Part shown: positions 6,137 to 59,389 of the stretch, piece after piece
How positions within the stretch are numbered: the stretch's first letter is position 1
Layout: the number at the start of each line of letters is the position of its first letter
Assembly: GCA_020055645.1 (NCBI GenBank)
Contig: CM034550.1
Span: forward strand, 15,699,001-15,763,000
From: Tomocerus qinae
Taxonomy: Eukaryota > Arthropoda > Collembola > Entomobryomorpha > Tomoceridae
DNA: 64,000 nt
Direction: 5' to 3'
Notes under the pieces: model-generated
What the model was told of the DNA's origin: nothing
The model's input: the letters and a program-made list of their open reading frames with translations, nothing else
The model's database searches: none
Made by a program: the position numbers and the translations under genes

Positions 6137-7193
6137 AGCCCGCCTGAGGAAGCGAGCTTATAGAACCCCACAGTCTGTCCGTACCCACGATAACTTTCGA
6201 ACACTAAGACGGAAGTTGACCAAACTTGGCATAAACAATGCCTATGGACTGGTAACGAACCCTATTGATTTTGGTTCAAATCGCTCCATAGGTTGCTGAG
6301 ATACCGCGCGCTCACTTTGTCTTCATTTTGATAGTCAAAGGGAAAAATTGGCAATAAAAAGTTCAATTGTGTTTCCTATAGATTGTTAGCGAGATAGTAT
6401 AAAATATTTGACTCCGCTTCTACCAAATTTAAGATTTTATAATAAAACAAATAAAACCGGAAAATAACTATTAGAGGACGGAAATAAATCTATTTCGCAT
6501 TTATATTCAATTTTATAGTCAAACTTGCATTTTTCCAATTTCTATTGATTTTGATAATTAAAATTGGCCGATTTCGATTCTCTTTAGATTTTCAAAGTCA
6601 ACGCTAATAAATTTTGAATTTCTGTTGATTTTCATAGCAAAAATGATCCAATTTTGATTTTCTGTTGGTTTTCATAGTCAACATTAATCAATTTTGTATT
6701 TTGTGTTGGTTTTCATAGTCAACATTAATCAATTTTGATTTTATGTTGATTTTCATTGTCAACATAATCAATTTTGATTTTATGTTGATTTTCATAGTCA
6801 ACATTAATCAATTTTGATTTTCTGTTGATTTTCATAGTCAACATTAATCCATTTTGATTTTATGTTGATTTTCATAGTAAAAATTAATCAATTTTGATTT
6901 TTTGTTGATTTTTATAGTAAAAATTAATCAATTTTGATTTTCTGTTGATTTTTCCAATGATATAGCTTCGCTTTGGTTGCGTTATAATTATATTAGTTAA
7001 AGATCACGTCAGTTTTCATATATCCTTATAATATCAATATGTGGTAGCTACATATATAAAGACTCCATTTTGAAAGTTTGATCAAAATCCGTACGCTCGG
7101 TTTTTTGTTACAAAGGGTGAGTACTTTTCGTCAACCAAAAAGTGTACACGGTAATCTTTAATCAGGCGAGCTTCTGTTACGGCTTGCTGTAGG
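6137..7193. mobile_element. Dispersed repeat family 'A', copy 1, nested in the foldback element
   Basis: The copy begins near AGCCCGCCTGAGGAAGCGAG and ends near TCAGGCGAGCTTCTGTTACG plus about 20 bases. The head carries CACAGTCTGTCCGTACC, an ACGATAACTTTCGAA motif and GACCAAACTTGGC. The tail carries ATCAAAATCCGTACG and GTGTACACGGTAA. The same head and tail recur at 16,799-18,140, which defines a repeat family. The two ends share a short inverted motif, GCTCGCCTGA at the head versus TCAGGCGAGC at the tail, consistent with short terminal inverted repeats. Between head and tail is an AT-rich minisatellite. There is no coding capacity, so it is probably a non-autonomous element of unknown superfamily. 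Exact ends are uncertain; both copies abut runs of five T. Confidence 0.65.
6530..6955. repeat. AT-rich minisatellite, about 40-bp unit
   Basis: About ten degenerate copies of a unit resembling TGTTGATTTTCATAGTCAAC followed by ATTAATCAATTTTGATTTT. Each copy is roughly 37-40 bp. It forms the core of repeat family A. The same unit reappears in the second copy of the family (about 17,230-17,470 and 17,780-17,945), so the minisatellite travels with the element. Confidence 0.8.
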
Positions 7194-16798: not shown

Positions 16799-18140
16799 AG
16801 CTCGCCTGAATAAGGCAGCTTATAGAACCGCACAGTCTGTCCGTACGTCCGTCCGTCCGTCCGTCCGTACGTCCGTCCGTCCCCACGATAACTTTCGAAA
16901 GCAATGACGGATATTGACCAAACTTGGCAAAAACAATGCCTATGGACCACTGACGATCCCTATTGATTTTGGGGCTAATCGGTCCATTGGTTGCTGAGAT
17001 ACCGTGCGCTCACTTTGTCTTCATTTTGATAGTCAAAGTGAAAAATGGGCATTAAAAAGTTCAATTGCGTTTCCTATAAATTGTTAGCGGGATAGTATAA
17101 AATATTTCACTCCGCTTCTACCGAATTGAAGATTTTATAGTAAAAGCAAATAAAACCAGAAAGTAACTATAGGAGTACGGAAATAAATCTAATTCGCATT
17201 TATATTAAATTTTATAGTCAAACTTGCATTATTCCAATTTCTATTGATTTTCATTATTAATATTGACCGATTTTGATTCTCTTTAGATTTTCATAGTCAA
17301 CATTATTCAATTTTAATTTAATGCTGATTTTCATAGTCAACATTATTCAATTTTAATATGTTGATTTTCATAGTCAAAATTATTCAATTTTGAATTTATG
17401 TTGATTTTTATAGTCAACAATTATCAATTTTGAATTTGTGTTTATTTTCATAGTCAACATTAATCAATTTTAACTCGCCTGAATAAGGCACCGTATAGAA
17501 TCGCACAGTCTGTCCGTCCGTCTGTCCGTACCCACGATAACTTTCGAATGCAAAGACGGATATTAATTAAACTTGGCAAAAACCATACCTATGGACTGGT
17601 GACGATCTCTATTGATTTTCGGGCAAATCAGTCCATTGGTTGCTGAAATGCCGTGCGGTCACTTTGTCTTCATTTTGATAGTCAAAGTGAAAAATGGGCA
17701 TTAAAAAGTTAAATTGCGTTTCCTATAAATTGTGAGATTGATAGTATAAAATATTTCAATCCGCTTCTACCAAATTTATTTTGAATTTATGTTTCATCGA
17801 TTTTGATTTTGTATTGATTTTGATAGTAAAGAATAATCAAATTTGATTTACTGTTGATTTTGATATTCAACATTAATCAATTTTGATTTTGTTGATTTTC
17901 ATAGTCAAAAATTATCTATTTTAAATTTTCTGTTGATTTTTCAAATGATATAGTTTCGTTTCCTTATAATATCAATGTCTGAATTTTTAATATGTCGTAG
18001 CTACATATATAAAGACTCAATTCTGAAAGCTTGATCAAAATCCGTACATTCGGTTTTGTGTTACGTGCGACTTTTCGTCTACCAAAATGTGTACACGGTA
18101 ACCTTTACTCAGGCGAGCTTCTGTTACGGCTTGCTGTAGG
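16799..18140. mobile_element. Dispersed repeat family 'A', copy 2 (head partly duplicated)
   Basis: This copy has the same head as copy 1 (AGCTCGCCTGAATAAGGCAG, CACAGTCTGTCCGTACG, ACGATAACTTTCGAAAG, GACCAAACTTGGCA) and the same tail (ATCAGGCGAGCTTCTGTTAC-type, ending CTTGCTGTAGG at 18,140). A second head begins at about 17,471 (ACTCGCCTGAATAAGGC), so two heads share one tail. This is either one copy inserted into another or an internal duplication through the minisatellite. There is no ORF of note; open frames on the minus strand here are products of the TCCG microsatellite. Confidence 0.65.
16846..16882. repeat. TCCG/GTCC microsatellite
   Basis: A run of CCGT units with two TACG interruptions in the head of repeat family A copy 2. 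Copy 1 has only one or two units at the same place, so the tract has expanded here. Confidence 0.9.
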
Positions 18141-46818: not shown

Positions 46819-46823
46819 TTCGA
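46819..46823. repeat. Target-site duplication TTCGA, left copy
   Basis: TTCGA directly abuts the first LTR base and is repeated at 59,385-59,389 directly after the last LTR. Five-base duplications are typical of copia integrases. It encloses the whole two-copy array, and no such duplication flanks the middle LTR. Confidence 0.85.
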
Positions 46824-47264
46824 TGTTATGAAAACGGATTCAGTTAGTGAGACAAGTTTTGTATTTAGTTGTTACTGTAAAGTAACTTTTATTGAACAGA
46901 GAGAGAATGAAGTTTCCAGCTCAAACAGTTGAATAATACTCAGTACTTTTACATTATTGTCCATGGTATTTAAATACTATGCTTACATAGACAGATGTGA
47001 GAGACCCTTAATGGTTACAATAGGTATCTCTATAAAGCAAGGGACATGGGACGATGTAACAGTTGTACCCATATGCTTTCATGCTTCATTTAGACTTAAT
47101 TGAGCTACAAAATCATAAAAACTAATAGTTACTACATTAAGAAGGGCCAAACGTTAAGTACTTGGACCCTTAAAATCTAATGTTCAGCTTAAATGTACAA
47201 ACCAATTGTGTGAACATTTGCTACTTTACTTTCTCATGCATTTATTTAGGTTAGTATTCTAACA
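46824..47264 (-). repeat. LTR, left outer (3' LTR of left copy)
   Basis: 441 bp, TG...CA ends (minus strand TGTTAG...TAACA), flush with the TTCGA duplication. It matches the other two LTRs by eye over its whole length. TATA-like TATTTAAATA lies at 46,967-46,976, and an AATAAA signal (minus) about 75 bp downstream near 46,888. Confidence 0.95.
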
Positions 47265-47273
47265 CTATCCCTT
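47265..47273 (-). other. Polypurine tract of left copy
   Basis: On the minus strand AAGGGATAG immediately precedes the 3' LTR, the expected site for plus-strand priming. It is short but positioned flush with the LTR, and the right copy has the same sequence at 53,324-53,332. Confidence 0.7.
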
Positions 47274-47291
47274 AATCTAAATACATTTTCT

Positions 47292-48845
47292 TTAGGCATC
47301 ATCTATTTCGATGGTTTTAGGGGCTGTAAATTTTACAGCAGGCTCGACAGTTTTCTTCCGTTTCCAAATGATAATCATAACAACAACCAGAATTATTATA
47401 ATAAGAGACAAAAAAATGATTCCACCAATCAACAAATTTAAAAACATAAATGTAGTATTATATGAATCATGATTTTTCTTAGTTGAATCCAACATTTTTA
47501 TATCTTCCTTAATTTCGTCCATGTGTATCTTTGGCTGTAATAGCCAATTAGCTTTCATCGTGAATAAAGGGTTGACCTCCTGGATATGGCTAATTTGAAA
47601 TTCGCCGGCCTTGTAGAAATGGTCATTGATTGTGAAAGCTGCTGTAATTGGCAGTGTAAAGACATCAAGTGGGCAGGCCTGTTCTCTTTTTCCAATTGTA
47701 ATATTATTGCCGTGGCAATAAATATAATTCTGAAAGTTGAAGTTTTTTACTTGAACGAAATCCATCGCGTCCTTTGTATGTCTCGGATGACATTTTCCCA
47801 ACGAATAATACCTCGAGACGTTTGGGTAGGTCATGCTATGGTCACAATCCTGTGAAGGAGACAAAATCAAATCAGAGTATTTAACATTAACTGCATACAC
47901 ACAACTGTGTAATTCACTCATGATCACGTTTCGGGGTCCAGAAAACGAGATAACGCAAGTCTGGTTCTCAGTTTGGTGTATCAGGTCAAAAGGGTCAGCC
48001 TCCAGAAGGTGCAGAGTATCATTTATAAGTGGAGTAACAAAATCAAAGTACAGTTTAGATTTGTCATAAGATATTCGACATTTCTTTGCTCTGCCAAGCC
48101 GAATTGGACAAGACTCTTTACATGGCAAGGAGAAGCCAAGATAGTCAAACAATGGAGCATATAACTTTCGTTCTTCCCAATTTCGCTTCGCTTCTTTAAG
48201 TATTTGTTTGGCAGTCAGCATTCTTGATGTTATGTATGAAATTGCGTAAATAGATGCGCTCAGCTTTGCTTTCATTTGTGTATAGTCATCTTCATGTGCC
48301 TTAGTTTCTATCCGCAAAAGTTTTACATTATGTTGTAGAACTTTAATTGCTTCTTTCGCCAATTCCATATTTTTCGAAAGACTCTCTAGTTCACTTTCCA
48401 TCTCACTCATCTTCGTTTCAACAGTTGCTATTTTTCCTGCTGCGACACTGGCTGTCACCTGTGCTGAGATTCCAAGTCCAACTGGAACAACTATGGACAT
48501 GATTAGTATTCCCATTAATATTCCAAAAACAAATCTCTTAGAGCGTGAATGGACTTCTGTGAAGCTGCCTTTAGGGCACATAATTTCCAGTTCCTTCATA
48601 AAATATTCATCATACAGTTCGTTGCATTTGTTTTTCGTATCGATGAGAAGATCCTCATGAATTGTCTCATTCGTCAAAATGTCGCAAGGGCTTTTCAAAT
48701 GAATCATTAAATAGTACTCATTGTAACCTACAGTTATAGGTATGTTACTTGGCCTCCAGAGTACTGGTTGGTTTACGGTTGGGTTTGCAGTAATTGGAGA
48801 TAGAAGTCCCAGCAATAGTAGCATAGTAATGAATAACTTGCTCAT
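47292..48845 (-). CDS. env: Envelope-like class I fusion glycoprotein, left copy
   Basis: 517 codons, intact and identical in translation to the right copy. From its own Met: hydrophobic signal peptide (about 1-20), short N-terminal subunit with Cys54, 74 and 90, and furin-type site RSKR at 101-104. Then a hydrophobic, Gly-rich fusion-peptide-like segment (105-129), a heptad-repeat region (about 141-179), and a Cys-rich ectodomain (Cys242, 246, 256, 297, 315, 334, 352, 377, 391). A second helical stretch lies before the membrane (about 441-460), then a transmembrane anchor (about 467-493) and a basic tail. Six N-glycosylation sequons are visible (59, 275, 294, 342, 381, 463). It follows RNase H in the same frame after a roughly 20-residue linker, with no stop between. 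Expression could be by spliced RNA or by cleavage of a polyprotein. Its role in cell entry is inferred from architecture only. Confidence 0.88.
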   Translation of the reverse strand: MSKLFITMLLLLGLLSPITANPTVNQPVLWRPSNIPITVGYNEYYLMIHLKSPCDILTNETIHEDLLIDTKNKCNELYDEYFMKELEIMCPKGSFTEVHSRSKRFVFGILMGILIMSIVVPVGLGISAQVTASVAAGKIATVETKMSEMESELESLSKNMELAKEAIKVLQHNVKLLRIETKAHEDDYTQMKAKLSASIYAISYITSRMLTAKQILKEAKRNWEERKLYAPLFDYLGFSLPCKESCPIRLGRAKKCRISYDKSKLYFDFVTPLINDTLHLLEADPFDLIHQTENQTCVISFSGPRNVIMSELHSCVYAVNVKYSDLILSPSQDCDHSMTYPNVSRYYSLGKCHPRHTKDAMDFVQVKNFNFQNYIYCHGNNITIGKREQACPLDVFTLPITAAFTINDHFYKAGEFQISHIQEVNPLFTMKANWLLQPKIHMDEIKEDIKMLDSTKKNHDSYNTTFMFLNLLIGGIIFLSLIIIILVVVMIIIWKRKKTVEPAVKFTAPKTIEIDDA

Positions 48846-49296
48846 TAGTCCACTTATGGTTCCAGTTCCAACACCGATCTTTGAATGGGGATTGATATTC
48901 CCGTTTCCTGCACTGAGTCCAAGTTTCTGTGTATCATGCTGATGTTTGCCTTTTAGCAGTGGTTTTGTGAGTACATCTGCCTTTTGTTCTTCTTTGGGTA
49001 CATGGTGTACCTCTATTACATTATTAGTTATTAGTTCTCTGACATAGTGGTAACGTACATCTATATGCTTAGTACGTTTATGAAACTCTGGGTTTTTAGC
49101 TAGCCGTATAGCGCTTGTATTGTCAACGAACAGCTTGGCTGGGCCGTCTTGTGGTATCTGCAGCTCCAAAAGATAGGTTTGCAGCCAAACACATTCCCTG
49201 GCTGCTGAGGAAAGAGCAACATACTCTGCCTCTGTACTGGAACAAGTCACTATAGGTTGCTTATTACTGTTCCAAGTGATCAAACTATCTCCAAGG
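48846..49296 (-). CDS. pol: RNase H domain, left copy (C-terminal part of Pol)
   Basis: Copia-type RNase H. The catalytic Glu is in STEAEYVAL, an Asp in LFVDNTSAI, and the domain closes with ADVLTKPL. The first catalytic Asp (in a SDSDFAG motif) lies just upstream, beyond a four-base A run (plus strand 49,297-49,300) where the frame changes. The same A run of four is present in the right copy (55,356-55,359), so this break is shared. Downstream, the frame continues without a stop through a linker into the envelope. Confidence 0.85.
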
Positions 49297-49371
49297 AAAA
49301 GGCATAACCAGTGGTTGATTTCCTGTCAAGTTTGTTGCCTGCAAAGTCTGAATCCGAGTAGCCATTCAAAC

Positions 49372-51276
49372 TCAACTCTCCTCCTTCTTGTAATACAAAC
49401 CCAAGTTTATTGTTCCTTTTAGGTACATAAGTACCTTTTTCGCTGCTTCGAGATGATTCTCATCGTATGCACTCATAAATTGGGACAGCTTTGACACTGC
49501 ATAGGCAATGTCAGGACGGGATAATCTTGTGAGAAACAATAAAGCTCCAATGAGCTGTGGATAAGGCAGTCCTTTCTCACACTGCTCAGCAGGAAGCCAA
49601 TCCTGGTTCGGTTGCATTGGTACAGACTGTACACTGCAATCAGTCATCTCAAATCTGTCAAGCAAGGTTTGTACATACGATGCCTGTCCCATATAAATTC
49701 CGTCTTCGCTTCGTTTAATTTCGAATCCCACGAAAGAGCTTAGTTCTCCTTTTGATATTTCAAATGTAGACTCAATTCTCTGTGTAACCATTTTTAGTGC
49801 TTCGTTATTTGGGGACACCATTAAAATATCGTCCACATATACCAGTAGGTATACAATGTATGTGTTAACAAATCCAATAAAGACACAAGGGTCGCTTGTT
49901 AATACATTAAAATTATTTTCTTTTAAAAATTCAGTTAATCTCTCGTTCCAGCATCTCGGTGCTTGCTTAAGCCCATAAAGACTCTTGTCCAACAAGCAAA
50001 CTAAGTTAGGATTTTCTATAAATCCGTCAGGCTGCTTCATATAAATAACTTCTTTAACTTTCCCATGCAGAAAGGCTGTTTTGATGTCCAGTTGTACAAT
50101 AAAGTAGCCGTATGTAGCTGCTATGCATATCAGAATCCTTATGCTTTCGTATCGGCCAACAGAGGAGAATGTGGCATAATAATCAATTCCATGTACTTGC
50201 TTGTAACCTTTTATAACCAAACGGGACTTAAATCTTGAAATTGAGCCATCTGGGTTTGTTTTTACTCTGTATACCCAACGGTTGTCAAGTACTTGCTTGT
50301 CTGTTGGGTAAGGGACCAAAGTCCAAGTTTTATTTAATTTATGGCTATGTAATTCATCCACCATGGATTCCATCCATTCCTTGGCATTGGGTGACATAAT
50401 TGCTTCATCAAACGTTGCTGGCTCTATTATTTTTGTATGAAATCCAACTTGAAGTCTGTCTATTGGCTTTAGTTTGGACCTATCCCTTAAAGTAGGCCCT
50501 GGCTTTATGTAGGATTCTATCTCCTCTTCGTCTCCCACAGGTTCACTTAACTCTTTTCTACTCTGCTCAAAGCTGTTCGCTTCCTCAAGAGAAATTTCAC
50601 CTTGTACTACTTCTTTGAAAGTTACATTACGAGCAATTGTTACTGTTTTATTAAGAGCATTGTATATTCTGTAGCTTTCTCCATCATATCCAACCATATA
50701 ACTCTGTTCAGCAGTATCATTCCACAATTTTCGTTTGTTTTGTGGTATGTGTGCAAAGGCTAGGCATCCAAAAATACGCAAATGTCCCATTTCTGGTTTT
50801 CTTTTTAAAATAGCCTCAAATGCTGTTATTTCTGGACTCTGTGTATCCAGAATTCGGTTCTTTATGTAAACTGCTGTGGCCATTGCTTCAGCCCACAAAT
50901 ATTCTGGCAGTTTTGACTGCAGTAGCATACAGCGAGCCGATTCTTTCAAAGTTCTCATTTCCCGTTCTATCTTCCCATTCGATTCAGGGCTGTATGGGGC
51001 CGTGGTCTCATGTACAATACCCATTTTCTGAAAGAATGTCTGAACTGTCTTATTAACCATTTCAGTTCCATTGTCACTTCTAAAAACTTTAAGTCTTGAT
51101 CCTGTCTGGTTTTCCATAAAGTAAACATACTCTTCAATACAGGCAGGGACTTGTGTCTTTTTCGTGATAAAGAATACCATACGAAATCCTGTCGAATCAT
51201 CTTTCATTAGGAAGAAATAATCAGCTCCTCCAATAGAAGTAACAGGCATTTTCCCAGATAGGTCTGCGTGAACCAT
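49372..51276 (-). CDS. pol: Integrase and reverse transcriptase, left copy (Pol, frame-broken at both ends)
   Basis: 634 codons. Integrase catalytic residues are Asp5, Asp68 and Glu104 (RSDNGTE and NGKIERE), exactly the D,D35E spacing. The copia reverse transcriptase has the LDIKTAFLHG motif (Asp397), SLYGLKQAPR and YVDD at 480-483. The frame starts artificially at an internal ATG, because a C is missing from a run at 51,279-51,281 (CCC here, CCCC at 57,338-57,341). It stops early because CC at 49,383-49,384 is CCC in the right copy (55,442-55,444). Apart from these ends the domain is uninterrupted. Confidence 0.93.
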   Translation of the reverse strand: MVHADLSGKMPVTSIGGADYFFLMKDDSTGFRMVFFITKKTQVPACIEEYVYFMENQTGSRLKVFRSDNGTEMVNKTVQTFFQKMGIVHETTAPYSPESNGKIEREMRTLKESARCMLLQSKLPEYLWAEAMATAVYIKNRILDTQSPEITAFEAILKRKPEMGHLRIFGCLAFAHIPQNKRKLWNDTAEQSYMVGYDGESYRIYNALNKTVTIARNVTFKEVVQGEISLEEANSFEQSRKELSEPVGDEEEIESYIKPGPTLRDRSKLKPIDRLQVGFHTKIIEPATFDEAIMSPNAKEWMESMVDELHSHKLNKTWTLVPYPTDKQVLDNRWVYRVKTNPDGSISRFKSRLVIKGYKQVHGIDYYATFSSVGRYESIRILICIAATYGYFIVQLDIKTAFLHGKVKEVIYMKQPDGFIENPNLVCLLDKSLYGLKQAPRCWNERLTEFLKENNFNVLTSDPCVFIGFVNTYIVYLLVYVDDILMVSPNNEALKMVTQRIESTFEISKGELSSFVGFEIKRSEDGIYMGQASYVQTLLDRFEMTDCSVQSVPMQPNQDWLPAEQCEKGLPYPQLIGALLFLTRLSRPDIAYAVSKLSQFMSAYDENHLEAAKKVLMYLKGTINLGLYYKKEES

Positions 51277-52721
51277 TTCCCTGGCTTAGTATTTCTCTTA
51301 GTTTCCACTGTGTGGTAAGGCTTTCTAGCTTGTTTTCCCAATTGACAAGTGCTACATTCAATGGACTGTTCTCCAAAATTCTCATAAAATCCTTTCACTG
51401 CATTTTTCTTGGCCGTGTCATTAATGAACCTTATATTGATGTGACCCATTCGCTCATGCCAGAGTCTTGCATTAGAGCTCAAGCATATTGCATTTGCTTT
51501 GTTCGGTACAATGGGTTTAAACTTCATAATATACATATTATCTCTCATTACAGCTACTGGCCCTTCTAATCCATTTCTATCAATGTATTTTGCCACTCCC
51601 GCTGCTCTTATTATGGTATATCCCTTTTTATCCATAATAACTTCTGAAAAGAGATTGGCTGCTCCCTCAATATGCAGTACCTCATTCATTGTGCATTCTA
51701 TCCATTTATTGTTCATGAATGCCAATACTGAAACAGTTCCTATTCCTTGGGCTTCCACTGCGTTTCCGTCAGTAAGGTATACTGACACTCGGGTCTCAAA
51801 CTCTTTGTATGAAATAAAGAAGGATTTTTTACCGCATATATGTTGGCTTGCACCGGAATCTGAAATCCATACATCATTACCATGATTTGGATTGCTCATG
51901 AAGGCTGCAATTGTCTTTCTTTTATCCTCCTCACTTTCGTTGGGGTGTGTATTGCGGGCTGGGCATTCCTTATCCTTATACCAATGACCAGTCTGTTTGC
52001 ACCGACTGCATTTGGTCTTTTTCTTTAATTCTTCAATCTTTCTTTTCTTGAATTCCTTTTTGTCGAGTTTCCCTTTTCCTCCTTTTGCCTGAAACGCCTT
52101 TACTTGGCTCTGCTCCTCCTCAGTGTTGCTTACTTGTTTCAGCTCAAGATCCTCTTTTCTCAACCTGGCTAACAGTGCGGGCATTGTTTGGGATGCTGCA
52201 GGAACACTGTCCCATGCCTTTTTGAAAGCATTATGCTTTTCATCAGGAAGTGAAGACACTATCTTCATAATTGTGGTATCATCGTCAATAACCACACCCA
52301 TTTGGTTTAGAGAGATTGACAACCTCTCTATCTCAGTGTATGTAGTGACAAGAGTTGTTCCCTCTTTGAACTTATAGTTGAAGAATGAAGCTAACACAAA
52401 CTGTTTGTTCAACTGACTTGTGTCACTATGAATTGACTTTAGACGGTCATACACTTGTTTTGATGTAATACAACTGTGGATATGAGTAGCGTTCACTAAT
52501 GTAAGAGTGGGTACAATGATGGCTTGGGCCTTTATATCAGAATCGTCCCATTTATCTTTATCAGCTGCGGCTGCACGAGTGGATGTGCCACTGACAACGT
52601 CCCACACTTTTGCAGCTTTAAGAACTAGGGTGATTTGTAAGTTCCAGAGATCCCAATTATCATTTGCAAGTTTTACAACGTGATTTGTATCAATACGTTG
52701 CGAAATACTGACGGTGGCCAT
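51207..52721 (-). CDS. gag-pol: Gag, protease and integrase N-domain, left copy
   Basis: 504 codons. Residues about 20-200 match the UBN2-type copia Gag layout, with W23/W26 near the start and a helical body. A basic stretch precedes a zinc knuckle at Cys238, Cys241, His246, Cys253, which is CX2CX4HX6C rather than the usual CX4HX4C. The aspartic protease signature is D288-S-G. The integrase zinc domain follows with His422, His427, Cys456 and Cys459. Sequence after residue about 481 is out of frame because of the CCC/CCCC difference at 51,279-51,281, so the last 23 residues are not genuine. This copy is intact at 51,647-51,650 (AAAA), where the right copy has five A. Confidence 0.93.
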   Translation of the reverse strand: MATVSISQRIDTNHVVKLANDNWDLWNLQITLVLKAAKVWDVVSGTSTRAAAADKDKWDDSDIKAQAIIVPTLTLVNATHIHSCITSKQVYDRLKSIHSDTSQLNKQFVLASFFNYKFKEGTTLVTTYTEIERLSISLNQMGVVIDDDTTIMKIVSSLPDEKHNAFKKAWDSVPAASQTMPALLARLRKEDLELKQVSNTEEEQSQVKAFQAKGGKGKLDKKEFKKRKIEELKKKTKCSRCKQTGHWYKDKECPARNTHPNESEEDKRKTIAAFMSNPNHGNDVWISDSGASQHICGKKSFFISYKEFETRVSVYLTDGNAVEAQGIGTVSVLAFMNNKWIECTMNEVLHIEGAANLFSEVIMDKKGYTIIRAAGVAKYIDRNGLEGPVAVMRDNMYIMKFKPIVPNKANAICLSSNARLWHERMGHINIRFINDTAKKNAVKGFYENFGEQSIECSTCQLGKQARKPYHTVETKRNTKPGKWFTQTYLGKCLLLLLEELIISS

Positions 52722-52862
52722 TTTACTTGTCAGAGTTCAACAACTTGCTCACTCACAAATACTTCACTCTTTTCCACACAAAAAACTGACTAAGTATTTA
52801 CTGATTGGACAAATTCACTAAGTTCAAAAACTTGAATTCTTTTAACTCACAGATCGAATCCT

Positions 52863-52882
52863 GAATCCCACTTCTGACACCA
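52863..52882 (-). other. Primer-binding site (tRNA-Leu) of left copy
   Basis: The plus strand reads GAATCCCACTTCTGACACCA directly next to the LTR. This equals the 3' end of a metazoan-type tRNA-Leu (CAA family) including CCA, so the element's RNA can pair with 20 bases of that tRNA. There is no gap between LTR and site. Confidence 0.85.
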
Positions 52883-53323
52883 TGTTATGAAAACGGATTC
52901 AGTTAGTGAGACAAGTTTTGTATTTAGTTGTTACTGTAAAGTAACTTTTATTGAACAGAGAGAGAATGAAGTTTCCAGCTCAAACAGTTGAATAATACTC
53001 AGTACTTTTACATTATTGTCCATGGTATTTAAATACTATGCTTACATAGACAGATGTGAGAGACCCTTAATGGTTACAATAGGTATCTCTATAAAGCAAG
53101 GGACATGGGACGATGTAACAGTTGTACCCATATGCTTTCATGCTTCATTTAGACTTAATTGAGCTACAAAATCATAAAAACTAATAGTTACTACATTAAG
53201 AAGGGCCAAACGTTAAGTACTTGGACCCTTAAAATCTAATGTTCAGCTTAAATGTACAAACCAATTGTGTGAACATTTGCTACTTTACTTTCTCATGCAT
53301 TTATTTAGGTTAGTATTCTAACA
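52883..53323 (-). repeat. LTR, central, shared by both copies
   Basis: 441 bp. It serves as 5' LTR of the left copy and 3' LTR of the right copy. It has no 5-bp duplication at either side, as expected if it was never itself an outer junction. The TATA-like TATTTAAATA lies at 53,026-53,035. Confidence 0.95.
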
Positions 53324-53332
53324 CTATCCCTT
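53324..53332 (-). other. Polypurine tract of right copy
   Basis: AAGGGATAG on the minus strand, flush with the central LTR and identical to the left copy. Confidence 0.7.
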
Positions 53333-53350
53333 AATCTAAATACATTTTCT

Positions 53351-54904
53351 TTAGGCATCATCTATTTCGATGGTTTTAGGGGCTGTAAATTTTACAGCAG
53401 GCTCGACAGTTTTCTTCCGTTTCCAAATGATAATCATAACAACAACCAGAATTATTATAATAAGAGACAAAAAAATGATTCCACCAATCAACAAATTTAA
53501 AAACATAAATGTAGTATTATATGAATCATGATTTTTCTTAGTTGAATCCAACATTTTTATATCTTCCTTAATTTCGTCCATGTGTATCTTTGGCTGTAAT
53601 AGCCAATTAGCTTTCATCGTGAATAAAGGGTTGACCTCCTGGATATGGCTAATTTGAAATTCGCCGGCCTTGTAGAAATGGTCATTGATTGTGAAAGCTG
53701 CTGTAATTGGCAGTGTAAAGACATCAAGTGGGCAGGCCTGTTCTCTTTTTCCAATTGTAATATTATTGCCGTGGCAATAAATATAATTCTGAAAGTTGAA
53801 GTTTTTTACTTGAACGAAATCCATCGCGTCCTTTGTATGTCTCGGATGACATTTTCCCAACGAATAATACCTCGAGACGTTTGGGTAGGTCATGCTATGG
53901 TCACAATCCTGTGAAGGAGACAAAATCAAATCAGAGTATTTAACATTAACTGCATACACACAACTGTGTAATTCACTCATGATCACGTTTCGGGGTCCAG
54001 AAAACGAGATAACGCAAGTCTGGTTCTCAGTTTGGTGTATCAGGTCAAAAGGGTCAGCCTCCAGAAGGTGCAGAGTATCATTTATAAGTGGAGTAACAAA
54101 ATCAAAGTACAGTTTAGATTTGTCATAAGATATTCGACATTTCTTTGCTCTGCCAAGCCGAATTGGACAAGACTCTTTACATGGCAAGGAGAAGCCAAGA
54201 TAGTCAAACAATGGAGCATATAACTTTCGTTCTTCCCAATTTCGCTTCGCTTCTTTAAGTATTTGTTTGGCAGTCAGCATTCTTGATGTTATGTATGAAA
54301 TTGCGTAAATAGATGCGCTCAGCTTTGCTTTCATTTGTGTATAGTCATCTTCATGTGCCTTAGTTTCTATCCGCAAAAGTTTTACATTATGTTGTAGAAC
54401 TTTAATTGCTTCTTTCGCCAATTCCATATTTTTCGAAAGACTCTCTAGTTCACTTTCCATCTCACTCATCTTCGTTTCAACAGTTGCTATTTTTCCTGCT
54501 GCGACACTGGCTGTCACCTGTGCTGAGATTCCAAGTCCAACTGGAACAACTATGGACATGATTAGTATTCCCATTAATATTCCAAAAACAAATCTCTTAG
54601 AGCGTGAATGGACTTCTGTGAAGCTGCCTTTAGGGCACATAATTTCCAGTTCCTTCATAAAATATTCATCATACAGTTCGTTGCATTTGTTTTTCGTATC
54701 GATGAGAAGATCCTCATGAATTGTCTCATTCGTCAAAATGTCGCAAGGGCTTTTCAAATGAATCATTAAATAGTACTCATTGTAACCTACAGTTATAGGT
54801 ATGTTACTTGGCCTCCAGAGTACTGGTTGGTTTACGGTTGGGTTTGCAGTAATTGGAGATAGAAGTCCCAGCAATAGTAGCATAGTAATGAATAACTTGC
54901 TCAT
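53351..54904 (-). CDS. env: Envelope-like class I fusion glycoprotein, right copy
   Basis: 517 codons with the same protein as the left copy: signal peptide, RSKR site at 101-104, fusion-peptide-like segment, heptad region, twelve ectodomain cysteines (three before and nine after the cleavage site), transmembrane anchor and basic tail. Env is unbroken in both copies while gag-pol has length differences in both. The frame is continuous with RNase H upstream. Start chosen at the Met just before the signal peptide. Confidence 0.88.
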   Translation of the reverse strand: MSKLFITMLLLLGLLSPITANPTVNQPVLWRPSNIPITVGYNEYYLMIHLKSPCDILTNETIHEDLLIDTKNKCNELYDEYFMKELEIMCPKGSFTEVHSRSKRFVFGILMGILIMSIVVPVGLGISAQVTASVAAGKIATVETKMSEMESELESLSKNMELAKEAIKVLQHNVKLLRIETKAHEDDYTQMKAKLSASIYAISYITSRMLTAKQILKEAKRNWEERKLYAPLFDYLGFSLPCKESCPIRLGRAKKCRISYDKSKLYFDFVTPLINDTLHLLEADPFDLIHQTENQTCVISFSGPRNVIMSELHSCVYAVNVKYSDLILSPSQDCDHSMTYPNVSRYYSLGKCHPRHTKDAMDFVQVKNFNFQNYIYCHGNNITIGKREQACPLDVFTLPITAAFTINDHFYKAGEFQISHIQEVNPLFTMKANWLLQPKIHMDEIKEDIKMLDSTKKNHDSYNTTFMFLNLLIGGIIFLSLIIIILVVVMIIIWKRKKTVEPAVKFTAPKTIEIDDA

Positions 54905-55355
54905 TAGTCCACTTATGGTTCCAGTTCCAACACCGATCTTTGAATGGGGATTGATATTCCCGTTTCCTGCACTGAGTCCAAGTTTCTGTGTATCATGCTG
55001 ATGTTTGCCTTTTAGCAGTGGTTTTGTGAGTACATCTGCCTTTTGTTCTTCTTTGGGTACATGGTGTACCTCTATTACATTATTAGTTATTAGTTCTCTG
55101 ACATAGTGGTAACGTACATCTATATGCTTAGTACGTTTATGAAACTCTGGGTTTTTAGCTAGCCGTATAGCGCTTGTATTGTCAACGAACAGCTTGGCTG
55201 GGCCGTCTTGTGGTATCTGCAGCTCCAAAAGATAGGTTTGCAGCCAAACACATTCCCTGGCTGCTGAGGAAAGAGCAACATACTCTGCCTCTGTACTGGA
55301 ACAAGTCACTATAGGTTGCTTATTACTGTTCCAAGTGATCAAACTATCTCCAAGG
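54905..55355 (-). CDS. pol: RNase H domain, right copy (C-terminal part of Pol)
   Basis: Same content as the left copy: STEAEYVAL, LFVDNTSAI and ADVLTKPL motifs. The frame changes at the four-base A run 55,356-55,359. Upstream of it, in the reverse-transcriptase frame, the first RNase H motif (SDSDFAG) reads openly in this copy. Confidence 0.85.
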
Positions 55356-55478
55356 AAAAGGCATAACCAGTGGTTGATTTCCTGTCAAGTTTGTTGCCTG
55401 CAAAGTCTGAATCCGAGTAGCCATTCAAACTCAACTCTCCTCCCTTCTTGTAATACAAACCCAAGTTTATTGTTCCTT

Positions 55479-57746
55479 TTAGGTACATAAGTACCTTTTC
55501 GCTGCTTCGAGATGATTCTCATCGTATGCACTCATAAATTGGGACAGCTTTGACACTGCATAGGCAATGTCAGGACGGGATAATCTTGTGAGAAACAATA
55601 AAGCTCCAATGAGCTGTGGATAAGGCAGTCCTTTCTCACACTGCTCAGCAGGAAGCCAATCCTGGTTCGGTTGCATTGGTACAGACTGTACACTGCAATC
55701 AGTCATCTCAAATCTGTCAAGCAAGGTTTGTACATACGATGCCTGTCCCATATAAATTCCGTCTTCGCTTCGTTTAATTTCGAATCCCACGAAAGAGCTT
55801 AGTTCTCCTTTTGATATTTCAAATGTAGACTCAATTCTCTGTGTAACCATTTTTAGTGCTTCGTTATTTGGGGACACCATTAAAATATCGTCCACATATA
55901 CCAGTAGGTATACAATGTATGTGTTAACAAATCCAATAAAGACACAAGGGTCGCTTGTTAATACATTAAAATTATTTTCTTTTAAAAATTCAGTTAATCT
56001 CTCGTTCCAGCATCTCGGTGCTTGCTTAAGCCCATAAAGACTCTTGTCCAACAAGCAAACTAAGTTAGGATTTTCTATAAATCCGTCAGGCTGCTTCATA
56101 TAAATAACTTCTTTAACTTTCCCATGCAGAAAGGCTGTTTTGATGTCCAGTTGTACAATAAAGTAGCCGTATGTAGCTGCTATGCATATCAGAATCCTTA
56201 TGCTTTCGTATCGGCCAACAGAGGAGAATGTGGCATAATAATCAATTCCATGTACTTGCTTGTAACCTTTTATAACCAAACGGGACTTAAATCTTGAAAT
56301 TGAGCCATCTGGGTTTGTTTTTACTCTGTATACCCAACGGTTGTCAAGTACTTGCTTGTCTGTTGGGTAAGGGACCAAAGTCCAAGTTTTATTTAATTTA
56401 TGGCTATGTAATTCATCCACCATGGATTCCATCCATTCCTTGGCATTGGGTGACATAATTGCTTCATCAAACGTTGCTGGCTCTATTATTTTTGTATGAA
56501 ATCCAACTTGAAGTCTGTCTATTGGCTTTAGTTTGGACCTATCCCTTAAAGTAGGCCCTGGCTTTATGTAGGATTCTATCTCCTCTTCGTCTCCCACAGG
56601 TTCACTTAACTCTTTTCTACTCTGCTCAAAGCTGTTCGCTTCCTCAAGAGAAATTTCACCTTGTACTACTTCTTTGAAAGTTACATTACGAGCAATTGTT
56701 ACTGTTTTATTAAGAGCATTGTATATTCTGTAGCTTTCTCCATCATATCCAACCATATAACTCTGTTCAGCAGTATCATTCCACACTTTTCGTTTGTTTT
56801 GTGGTATGTGTGCAAAGGCTAGGCATCCAAAAATACGCAAATGTCCCATTTCTGGTTTTCTTTTTAAAATAGCCTCAAATGCTGTTATTTCTGGACTCTG
56901 TGTATCCAGAATTCGGTTCTTTATGTAAACTGCTGTGGCCATTGCTTCAGCCCACAAATATTCTGGCAGTTTTGACTGCAGTAGCATACAGCGAGCCGAT
57001 TCTTTCAAAGTTCTCATTTCCCGTTCTATCTTCCCATTCGATTCAGGGCTGTATGGGGCCGTGGTCTCATGTACAATACCCATTTTCTGAAAGAATGTCT
57101 GAACTGTCTTATTAACCATTTCAGTTCCATTGTCACTTCTAAAAACTTTAAGTCTTGATCCTGTCTGGTTTTCCATAAAGTAAACATACTCTTCAATACA
57201 GGCAGGGACTTGTGTCTTTTTCGTGATAAAGAATACCATACGAAATCCTGTCGAATCATCTTTCATTAGGAAGAAATAATCAGCTCCTCCAATAGAAGTA
57301 ACAGGCATTTTCCCAGATAGGTCTGCGTGAACCATTTCCCCTGGCTTAGTATTTCTCTTAGTTTCCACTGTGTGGTAAGGCTTTCTAGCTTGTTTTCCCA
57401 ATTGACAAGTGCTACATTCAATGGACTGTTCTCCAAAATTCTCATAAAATCCTTTCACTGCATTTTTCTTGGCCGTGTCATTAATGAACCTTATATTGAT
57501 GTGACCCATTCGCTCATGCCAGAGTCTTGCATTAGAGCTCAAGCATATTGCATTTGCTTTGTTCGGTACAATGGGTTTAAACTTCATAATATACATATTA
57601 TCTCTCATTACAGCTACTGGCCCTTCTAATCCATTTCTATCAATGTATTTTGCCACTCCCGCTGCTCTTATTATGGTATATCCCTTTTTATCCATAATAA
57701 CTTCTGAAAAAGAGATTGGCTGCTCCCTCAATATGCAGTACCTCAT
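55479..57746 (-). CDS. pol: Integrase and reverse transcriptase, right copy
   Basis: 755 codons from an artificial start. The first roughly dozen residues come from the wrong frame ahead of a run of five A (57,707-57,711; four in the left copy). The genuine sequence then runs through the integrase zinc domain (His77, His82, Cys111, Cys114), the D,D35E core (Asp142, Asp205, Glu241) and reverse transcriptase with YVDD at 617-620. It ends early because TTTT at 55,496-55,499 is TTTTT in the left copy (49,436-49,440). One residue differs from the left copy (Val for Leu in the KRK-WNDT stretch). The integrase part is uninterrupted here, unlike the left copy. Confidence 0.93.
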   Translation of the reverse strand: MRYCILREQPISFSEVIMDKKGYTIIRAAGVAKYIDRNGLEGPVAVMRDNMYIMKFKPIVPNKANAICLSSNARLWHERMGHINIRFINDTAKKNAVKGFYENFGEQSIECSTCQLGKQARKPYHTVETKRNTKPGEMVHADLSGKMPVTSIGGADYFFLMKDDSTGFRMVFFITKKTQVPACIEEYVYFMENQTGSRLKVFRSDNGTEMVNKTVQTFFQKMGIVHETTAPYSPESNGKIEREMRTLKESARCMLLQSKLPEYLWAEAMATAVYIKNRILDTQSPEITAFEAILKRKPEMGHLRIFGCLAFAHIPQNKRKVWNDTAEQSYMVGYDGESYRIYNALNKTVTIARNVTFKEVVQGEISLEEANSFEQSRKELSEPVGDEEEIESYIKPGPTLRDRSKLKPIDRLQVGFHTKIIEPATFDEAIMSPNAKEWMESMVDELHSHKLNKTWTLVPYPTDKQVLDNRWVYRVKTNPDGSISRFKSRLVIKGYKQVHGIDYYATFSSVGRYESIRILICIAATYGYFIVQLDIKTAFLHGKVKEVIYMKQPDGFIENPNLVCLLDKSLYGLKQAPRCWNERLTEFLKENNFNVLTSDPCVFIGFVNTYIVYLLVYVDDILMVSPNNEALKMVTQRIESTFEISKGELSSFVGFEIKRSEDGIYMGQASYVQTLLDRFEMTDCSVQSVPMQPNQDWLPAEQCEKGLPYPQLIGALLFLTRLSRPDIAYAVSKLSQFMSAYDENHLEAAKRYLCT

Positions 57747-58782
57747 TCATTGTGCATTCTATCCATTTATTGTTCATGAATGCCAATACTGAAACAGTTC
57801 CTATTCCTTGGGCTTCCACTGCGTTTCCGTCAGTAAGGTATACTGACACTCGGGTCTCAAACTCTTTGTATGAAATAAAGAAGGATTTTTTACCGCATAT
57901 ATGTTGGCTTGCACCGGAATCTGAAATCCATACATCATTACCATGATTTGGATTGCTCATGAAGGCTGCAATTGTCTTTCTTTTATCCTCCTCACTTTCG
58001 TTGGGGTGTGTATTGCGGGCTGGGCATTCCTTATCCTTATACCAATGACCAGTCTGTTTGCACCGACTGCATTTGGTCTTTTTCTTTAATTCTTCAATCT
58101 TTCTTTTCTTGAATTCCTTTTTGTCGAGTTTCCCTTTTCCTCCTTTTGCCTGAAACGCCTTTACTTGGCTCTGCTCCTCCTCAGTGTTGCTTACTTGTTT
58201 CAGCTCAAGATCCTCTTTTCTCAACCTGGCTAACAGTGCGGGCATTGTTTGGGATGCTGCAGGAACACTGTCCCATGCCTTTTTGAAAGCATTATGCTTT
58301 TCATCAGGAAGTGAAGACACTATCTTCATAATTGTGGTATCATCGTCAATAACCACACCCATTTGGTTTAGAGAGATTGACAACCTCTCTATCTCAGTGT
58401 ATGTAGTGACAAGAGTTGTTCCCTCTTTGAACTTATAGTTGAAGAATGAAGCTAACACAAACTGTTTGTTCAACTGACTTGTGTCACTATGAATTGACTT
58501 TAGACGGTCATACACTTGTTTTGATGTAATACAACTGTGGATATGAGTAGCGTTCACTAATGTAAGAGTGGGTACAATGATGGCTTGGGCCTTTATATCA
58601 GAATCGTCCCATTTATCTTTATCAGCTGCGGCTGCACGAGTGGATGTGCCACTGACAACGTCCCACACTTTTGCAGCTTTAAGAACTAGGGTGATTTGTA
58701 AGTTCCAGAGATCCCAATTATCATTTGCAAGTTTTACAACGTGATTTGTATCAATACGTTGCGAAATACTGACGGTGGCCAT
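57688..58782 (-). CDS. gag-pol: Gag and protease, right copy
   Basis: 364 codons. Gag body, zinc knuckle at Cys238/Cys241/His246/Cys253 and protease D288-S-G are identical to the left copy. The reading frame leaves the true one at the five-A run 57,707-57,711, so the last few residues are not genuine. The start ATG lies 161 bases after the 5' LTR, in the favourable context AAAATGGCC. A GTAAAA donor-like sequence ends immediately before this ATG (58,786-58,787). Confidence 0.93.
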   Translation of the reverse strand: MATVSISQRIDTNHVVKLANDNWDLWNLQITLVLKAAKVWDVVSGTSTRAAAADKDKWDDSDIKAQAIIVPTLTLVNATHIHSCITSKQVYDRLKSIHSDTSQLNKQFVLASFFNYKFKEGTTLVTTYTEIERLSISLNQMGVVIDDDTTIMKIVSSLPDEKHNAFKKAWDSVPAASQTMPALLARLRKEDLELKQVSNTEEEQSQVKAFQAKGGKGKLDKKEFKKRKIEELKKKTKCSRCKQTGHWYKDKECPARNTHPNESEEDKRKTIAAFMSNPNHGNDVWISDSGASQHICGKKSFFISYKEFETRVSVYLTDGNAVEAQGIGTVSVLAFMNNKWIECTMNEVLHIEGAANLFFRSYYG

Positions 58783-58923
58783 TTTACTTGTCAGAGTTCA
58801 ACAACTTGCTCACTCACAAATACTTCACTCTTTTCCACACAAAAAACTGACTAAGTATTTACTGATTGGACAAATTCACTAAGTTCAAAAACTTGAATTC
58901 TTTTAACTCACAGATCGAATCCT

Positions 58924-58943
58924 GAATCCCACTTCTGACACCA
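58924..58943 (-). other. Primer-binding site (tRNA-Leu) of right copy
   Basis: The same 20 bases as the left copy, GAATCCCACTTCTGACACCA on the plus strand, abutting the 5' LTR at 58,944. The match to the 3' end of tRNA-Leu is from memory of the metazoan sequence. Confidence 0.85.
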
Positions 58944-59007
58944 TGTTATGAAAACGGATTCAGTTAGTGAGACAAGTTTTGTATTTAGTTGTTACTGTAA
59001 AGTAACT

Positions 59008-59013
59008 TTTATT
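59008..59013 (-). promoter_or_regulatory. Polyadenylation signal AATAAA in LTR
   Basis: AATAAA on the minus strand, about 75 bp downstream of the TATA-like box, so it would lie in or near the R region. The same spot exists in the other two LTRs. Confidence 0.55.
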
Positions 59014-59086
59014 GAACAGAGAGAGAATGAAGTTTCCAGCTCAAACAGTTGAATAATACTCAGTACTTTTACATTATTGTCCATGG

Positions 59087-59096
59087 TATTTAAATA
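59087..59096 (-). promoter_or_regulatory. TATA-like box in LTR
   Basis: TATTTAAATA (self-complementary) about 290 bp into the LTR from its 5' end, placing the transcription start shortly downstream and the polyadenylation signal after it. Equivalent boxes lie at 53,026-53,035 and 46,967-46,976. Confidence 0.55.
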
Positions 59097-59384
59097 CTAT
59101 GCTTACATAGACAGATGTGAGAGACCCTTAATGGTTACAATAGGTATCTCTATAAAGCAAGGGACATGGGACGATGTAACAGTTGTACCCATATGCTTTC
59201 ATGCTTCATTTAGACTTAATTGAGCTACAAAATCATAAAAACTAATAGTTACTACATTAAGAAGGGCCAAACGTTAAGTACTTGGACCCTTAAAATCTAA
59301 TGTTCAGCTTAAATGTACAAACCAATTGTGTGAACATTTGCTACTTTACTTTCTCATGCATTTATTTAGGTTAGTATTCTAACA

Positions 59385-59389
59385 TTCGA
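59385..59389. repeat. Target-site duplication TTCGA, right copy
   Basis: Exact partner of 46,819-46,823. Together they show the array occupies one integration site. Confidence 0.85.

Follow-up and report, generated by a model that had tools for sequence, protein, structure and literature searches.

An element of Ty1/copia type in the genome of the collembolan Tomocerus qinae carries an intact envelope-like gene (env) in the open frame of its RNase H. It lies in a stretch of 64,000 nucleotides (assembly GCA_020055645.1, contig CM034550.1, positions 15,699,001 to 15,763,000), hereafter the window. The element probably belongs to an old, recently active Ty1/copia lineage that acquired a class I, F-like fusogen, keeps it under selection and expresses it at the C-terminal end of a Gag-Pol-Env polyprotein. 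For this lineage the copia backbone, the continuous frame, the anatomy of the glycoprotein, its conservation across families, low ratios of non-synonymous to synonymous substitution rates (dN/dS) and recent insertions were observed directly; to judge from predicted structures, the fusogen would be of the kind of the F proteins of paramyxoviruses, pneumoviruses and arthropod mononegaviruses. A sequence-only reading of the window had interpreted the element as a recent animal copia element with an apparently complete class I-type envelope, and the analysis supports it on backbone (copia-type reverse transcriptase), envelope (class I-like matches, from fold models of low confidence) and recency (identical long terminal repeats, LTRs).

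Copia backbone and envelope frame

Pfam searches with the window pol gave matches to Retrotran_gag_2 (3.8e-25), Pol_BBD, gag_pre-integrs, rve, SH3 and RVT_2. The reverse transcriptase (RT) is of the copia type (6.9e-68 for RVT_2 vs 0.031 for RVT_1) and the integrase lies upstream of it, not downstream as in the RT-before-integrase order of retroviruses and Metaviridae (errantivirus). Protease and RNase H gave no Pfam match and were assigned by position and motif: the protease by DSG, presumably its motif, and the RNase H, placed after RT, by KHIDV and AD..TK blocks, which we take to be RNase H motifs and which occur in copia relatives too, together with similarity to its kin. Compared with solved structures, the pol open reading frame (ORF) matched best the integrase of 7z0h (6e-17), presumably that of Ty1, and next foamy-virus integrases (5e-6). 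A copia-type gag, integrase before RT, RVT_2, and LTRs with a short target duplication place the element in Ty1/copia. The earlier assignment of pol to this type is thus borne out by RT profile and integrase-RT order, with protease and RNase H standing on motif and position; an RT outside copia, which would have contradicted it, was not found by profile and domain order (the RT trees below hold copia sequences).

The RNase H/envelope frame runs from stop to stop over 47292-49325 on the minus strand, and an identical protein is encoded at 53351-55384. Counted from the first methionine (48845), the envelope has exactly 517 residues, with hydrophobic stretches at residues 1-22, 102-136 and 463-500, an RSKR motif at 101-104 with a hydrophobic stretch directly after it, six N-glycosylation sites and 12 cysteines. 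Ten of these cysteines are invariant in a five-sequence alignment (A1), and the other two fall where two of the aligned relatives (P0003, P0004) are cut off. If bases of the same composition were independent, 517 codons would stay open with a probability of about 6e-17; the remaining two frames of the env strand contain 38 and 43 stops. The sequence-only description of an intact 517-residue membrane glycoprotein in the RNase H frame therefore holds, signal peptide, RSKR, hydrophobic segment and anchor all being present, and the glycoprotein is of type I. The predicted structure includes a long helix, with which the protein shows the F-type class I layout (signal, cleavage site, fusion peptide, heptad helix, C-terminal anchor).

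Copies and families

Labels beginning with L denote genome loci that were fetched, those beginning with P relatives from protein searches, and G000 the genome of the species itself (334,443,149 bases, 115 contigs). The env matches in this genome number at least 87, with identities ranging from 100% down to about 30%. Thirteen of them lie in stop-free frames of 1,609-1,995 codons, and 48, by our count, span 400 or more of the 519 query residues. Copies with longer open frames were also found in the window's own family. Twenty loci, each with at least 400 envelope residues and chosen in part for long open frames, were hand-picked from the 87 matches. Copia elements make up 18 of these, and all 18 have RNase H and env in one ORF. 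Nine of the 20 hold gag, integrase, RT, RNase H and env in a single ORF of 1,817-1,995 codons, a proportion that, given the hand-picking, is no estimate of the intact fraction; copia domains were confirmed by Pfam in all four long frames tested.

An LTR pair of 99.8-100% identity was found in 16 of the 20 loci. L010, L011 and L012 have no LTR pair (L012 was cut short by the choice of borders), and a 75% repeat at L018 was not taken for one. Exact 5-bp duplications adjoin the TG...CA ends in 9 of 17 loci tested, L018 among the 17. As the LTRs of the window element are likewise identical, its description as recent is upheld.

From the RT and env trees 11 copia families were grouped by eye. The distance from RNase H motif to env motif varies between 57 and 85 residues across the 11 families, always in frame. 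Across families, signal, cleavage region, hydrophobic segment and anchor follow one another in a constant order, except that L025, L026 and L028 lack the anchor because of an early end of the frame, and that the signal-peptide peak of L022 is below the threshold used. A hydrophobic segment stands at the cleavage position in 18 of 18 copia rows, directly preceded by RxKR in 8 of the 11 families.

Outside this genome, a search of about 5.8 billion predicted proteins, in which, as in the other protein searches here, about 8,000 candidates sharing most words were scored, returned the env relatives P0001-P0004 (39-49% identity); P0005 and P0006 were added by profile. In P0005 and P0007, which come from other records, a copia RNase H region is joined to an envelope in one frame (spacing 64 and 68). 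The search for RT relatives was confined to proteins of up to about 1,320 residues, among which full Gag-Pol-Env proteins could not appear; within this range, P0007 is the only one of 65 RNase H-motif relatives with a tail long enough for env. Of the RT relatives listed, just one bears an organism name (Photinus pyralis). No relative passing tblastn was found in viral contigs and prokaryote genome contigs. A conserved block of the env relative P0006 is interrupted by about 28 extra residues, which look like a read-through intron.

Expression of the envelope

With Gag, protease, integrase, RT, RNase H and Env in one frame, the product would most likely be a Gag-Pol-Env polyprotein. Downstream of RNase H, the internal signal peptide would direct the C-terminal part into the endoplasmic reticulum, where signal peptidase would free Env from Pol, and a furin-type protease would cut at RxKR in most families. 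A trimeric F-like spike would then reach the surface and might mediate fusion; it could let copia particles pass between cells, for example into the germ line, if such particles are taken up, which would give the lineage a retrovirus-like lifestyle. The main argument for the polyprotein is that the frame persists while the length of the linker changes, although splicing could act as well. To our knowledge, an Env made in this manner, at the C-terminal end of a polyprotein, would be without parallel among other retroelements. Its release at an internal signal peptide would be comparable to what occurs in alphaviruses and flaviviruses.

The strongest competing explanation, though less likely, keeps the same element and fusogen but derives Env from a subgenomic RNA produced by splicing, as retroviruses and gypsy errantiviruses do; sharing a frame with Pol would then be incidental. 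It fits the fact that every copia row has a methionine upstream of the signal region or inside it, and retroviral Env is expressed by splicing; if the frame were irrelevant, however, drift would be expected, and all 11 families, with their different spacings, are in frame.

Evolution and exchange of the envelope

In the RT tree, 12 env-bearing rows (the 11 families and P0007) and 28 env-less rows stand on two sides of one branch (support 100/95). The env-less set consists of the first 28 qualifying RT hits (ids from P0012, RNase H motif present, tail of at most 60 residues) and is a selected, not a balanced, sample of copia. Four unclassed rows fall on the env side: P0008, P0010 and P0013, which end before or within RNase H, and P0011. 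The latter, a copia pol from another record, stops a little beyond RNase H; its hydrophobic tail of about 30 residues resembles a signal peptide and may represent the beginning of an envelope that was lost or broken in frame. The tree was built from copia sequences without an outgroup, so gain and loss of env both fit it. In the env tree, P0001-P0005 and P0007 are interspersed among the families of the T. qinae genome; the join is therefore older than the split of these families or has moved between hosts.

In the four copia pairs short of saturation, dN/dS for env was 0.15 (window/L027), 0.04 (L014/L016), 0.16 (L021/L022) and 0.32 (L023/L026); 9 of 15 pairs were saturated. These ratios argue for selection on the protein, acting through active copies. 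Compared with the window family, L027 is 96% identical in env, 72% in RT, 77% in RNase H, 79% in integrase and 88% in gag, and it switches place between the RT and env trees. This pattern points to L027 being a mosaic, with envelope exchange by recombination.

The envelope was also found on a second carrier. At L010:4739-7807 and L011:4497-7766 this envelope (63% and 58% identical) follows an ORF that has a match to retroviral-type aspartic protease and no copia domain (protease-envelope, or PR-Env, unit). The PR-Env ORF was found again at L034, L035 and L036, and a 5.4-kb match at 98% links L010 to L035. In two pairs of these units that are very close to each other, dN/dS was 0.45 and 0.36, with few changes. 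An RVT_1 ORF at L035 had no match in phage records. BTB (once MATH-BTB) and zinc-finger genes adjoin the unit on the opposite strand in several places. Contig C1 of G000 bears, at about 65-77 Mb, four of the five loci with the PR-Env ORF and also several of the closest env copies.

That the copia Env came from another retroelement or a large element, for example the PR-Env unit at L010/L011, and not from an RNA virus, is improbable. The same Env does occur in a non-copia ORF with an aspartic protease, as this origin would have it; in the env tree, however, the PR-Env rows are nested among copia envelopes, where they join the window and L009 families (support 100/99, with P0007 outside). This nesting suggests that copia was the donor and that Env was transferred from it into the repeated PR-Env unit.

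Resemblance to viral fusion proteins

Among the 50 matches listed by Foldseek for the predicted structure against PDB, 47 are F of paramyxoviruses or pneumoviruses and 3 coronavirus spike (best E 8.5e-7). With the first model, BFVD gave 14 matches at E<=0.001, of which 13 are named viral glycoproteins, spikes or F (the top one from Canya virus), and VIA gave F in 48 of the 50 matches listed. A profile of 16 envelopes against PDB sequences had F0 proteins as its best eight matches (E 0.0017-0.003), and Fusion_gly was the Pfam family matched by most envelopes (5 of 16, best 0.00028). The C-terminal protein is similar to class I fusion proteins, a likeness to be read with reservations about the confidence of the models.

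Other candidates were rejected. A single env sequence against PDB gave tropomyosin (0.13), and a five-row env profile gave optineurin (0.04), with F0 proteins at 0.2 or weaker; env profile A2 was useless because P0007 had brought its integrase along. Pfam matches to Prefoldin, ATG17, DUF7365 and similar families were judged to be heptad-repeat matches and set aside.

Several observations weigh against an F-like fusogen made in a copia polyprotein. Both fold models are of low confidence (predicted local distance difference test, pLDDT, 55 and 52), the second being weaker, and the fold matches have template modelling (TM) scores of 0.12-0.36, with VIA Z below 7. The first BFVD match of the second model is an uncharacterised abalone herpesvirus protein, baculovirus F coming fourth; in VIA the same model gave F in 39 of the 50 matches listed, the 11 others including alphavirus E1 and FHA domains on the C-terminal part. 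The sequence evidence for F is weak, as Fusion_gly reached 15.1 bits, below the Pfam cut-off of 29.8, and for this reason the envelope is named F-like and not filed as Fusion_gly. RxKR is absent in 3 of the 11 families (L014-L016, L018, L021, L022), and L025, one of the nine long frames, ends before the anchor. P0011, a neighbour on the env side of the RT tree, ends 72 residues past the RNase H motif without a full Env in its ORF, and the window's own copies have broken pol frames. The in-frame RNase H-Env fusion is itself compatible with a spliced env mRNA.

The low model confidence, the families without a furin-type motif and the many weak Pfam matches to coiled coils of cellular proteins would also suit a captured host protein, or a surface protein that serves adhesion or superinfection exclusion and not fusion. 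This is unlikely, since the fold and profile searches rank viral fusion proteins first, and every copia row retains the hydrophobic segment at its cleavage position. The outcome that would have overturned the sequence-only reading, a non-fusogenic host protein with no class I fold, was accordingly not obtained, with models of low confidence.

Structure of the window element

The ORFs of the span 47292..58782, given by the sequence-only reading as the element, are present, but the unit really extends over 46824-59384 as a tandem LTR-internal-LTR-internal-LTR (Table 1). Its three 441-bp LTRs are identical (zero differences), the 5-bp target duplication TTCGA stands on both outer flanks, and the two internal copies differ at five sites. 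Frame breaks, whose positions differ between the copies, divide the gag-pol of each into separate ORFs, so that pol is defective; env remains open in both. The tandem may have arisen by LTR recombination after one insertion, and the assembly may have contributed to it. That the join of copia pol and envelope is itself an assembly chimera or a single chance insertion can practically be dismissed: the near-identity of the two tandem copies could be partly a product of assembly, but the same join recurs at all 18 copia loci elsewhere and in the records of P0005 and P0007.

Table 1. Features of the tandem element, in window coordinates
Feature	Position	Strand	Remark
Target-site duplication TTCGA, one outer flank	46819..46823	.	
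LTR (3' LTR of copy 1), 441 bp, TG...CA	46824..47264	-	
Short purine-rich tract adjoining 3' LTR	47265..47276	-	from sequence; putative function
Envelope copy 1, 517 aa, in frame with RNase H upstream	47292..48845	-	
Transmembrane anchor, env residues 463-500	47346..47459	-	
Hydrophobic fusion-peptide-like segment, env residues 105-133	48447..48533	-	weak Fusion_gly match here
Furin-type site RSKR, env residues 101-104	48534..48545	-	
Signal peptide, env residues 1-20	48786..48845	-	probable cleavage point
RNase H and linker, copy 1, in the open frame of env	48846..49325	-	by motif and kin, not Pfam
Integrase and reverse transcriptase ORF, copy 1	49372..51276	-	
Gag, Pol_BBD/protease region, pre-integrase, copy 1	51207..52721	-	protease by presumed motif
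Primer-binding site, copy 1	52864..52882	-	from sequence
Middle LTR, common to both copies	52883..53323	-	
Envelope copy 2, identical protein	53351..54904	-	
RNase H and linker, copy 2	54905..55384	-	
Pre-integrase, integrase, reverse transcriptase ORF, copy 2	55479..57746	-	
Gag and Pol_BBD/protease-region ORF, copy 2	57688..58782	-	
Primer-binding site, copy 2	58925..58943	-	from sequence
LTR (5' LTR of copy 2)	58944..59384	-	
Target-site duplication TTCGA, other outer flank	59385..59389	.	

The primer-binding site of the window copies is presumably tRNA-Leu-like. Primer-binding sites differ by family: TGGTAGCAGAGCG... was found in L013 and L015-L017, and TGGTGTCAGAAGTGGG in the window family and L027, which we take to be initiator-Met-like and Leu-like, respectively. 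The AT-rich flanks of the window contain three tandem arrays of similar 40-bp units (6539-6952, 17286-17473 and 17796-17940). No tRNA (ARAGORN) and no Rfam family was found in the window, and 10 flank ORFs scanned by Pfam (of 134 with at least 60 codons) gave no match above the cut-off.

Comparison with known systems

Fusogen capture is thought to be a route by which retrotransposons become infectious, and is documented for gypsy and BEL backbones; copia has so far been represented by plant elements whose 'envelopes' are without clear function. Errantivirus Env is expressed by splicing, and the TelKA elements of bdelloid rotifers belong to gypsy. An F-like Env with low dN/dS, in a copia lineage that has inserted recently, offers an independent test of the transition from retrotransposon to infectious element, and a fixed Pol-Env fusion, if true, would be a new solution for Env expression. 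Beyond the narrower reading given at the outset, the balance is about even for the full proposal that Ty1/copia is another backbone giving retrovirus-like animal elements, beside gypsy/retroviruses and BEL/Pao. In this proposal Env would be made at the C-terminal end of the Gag-Pol-Env polyprotein and set free by way of an internal signal peptide, and the lineage would be an old and diverse one, with 11 families in one genome, that has inserted recently, exchanges envelopes by recombination (one mosaic) and has passed an envelope on to an unrelated repeated unit.

No animal copia element with a fusogen was found among the matches listed in the open-licence literature of PubMed Central (PMC), a scope that lies outside subscription papers and Repbase. 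In particular, none appeared in the available portions of the silkworm survey (PMC6085415), the annelid survey (PMC8220671), the BEL/Pao survey (PMC3118150) and the Troyka paper (PMC12440569). In its available main text, the Viro3D structural survey describes class I proteins of LTR retrotransposons in Metaviridae and does not contain the word Pseudoviridae; it used F of respiratory syncytial virus as single reference, and further cases were expected (PMC12583693).

The systems nearest to the window element compare with it as follows, those with a citation as described in the available portions of the source. Errantivirus/gypsy insect endogenous retroviruses are LTR retroelements with an F-type Env, as is the window element, but have a gypsy backbone and an Env related to baculovirus F (PMC12992720). 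The TelKA elements have a paramyxovirus- or mononegavirus-like Env on a retrovirus-like LTR lineage that is not copia (PMC5408684). Lokiretroviruses likewise have an Env similar to Mononegavirales fusion glycoproteins, and are set apart by a dual RNase H and a position as sister to retroviruses (PMC9040795). The Anakin BEL-Pao elements of mosquitoes are also LTR retroelements with an RNA-virus glycoprotein, but combine a BEL/Pao backbone with a chuvirus glycoprotein (PMC7642597), which is called type III (PMC13172572). Sirevirus shares with the window element a copia backbone and an extra envelope-like gene after pol; these are plant elements, set apart here by description and not by sequence, and in the available portion of one source it is still unclear whether they encode an envelope (PMC5408684). 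With Ty1/copia (Pseudoviridae) the window element has in common the copia gag, integrase before RT, RVT_2, LTRs, a 5-bp target duplication and a single Gag-Pol frame, and it differs from them in having a 517-aa F-like glycoprotein in frame after RNase H.

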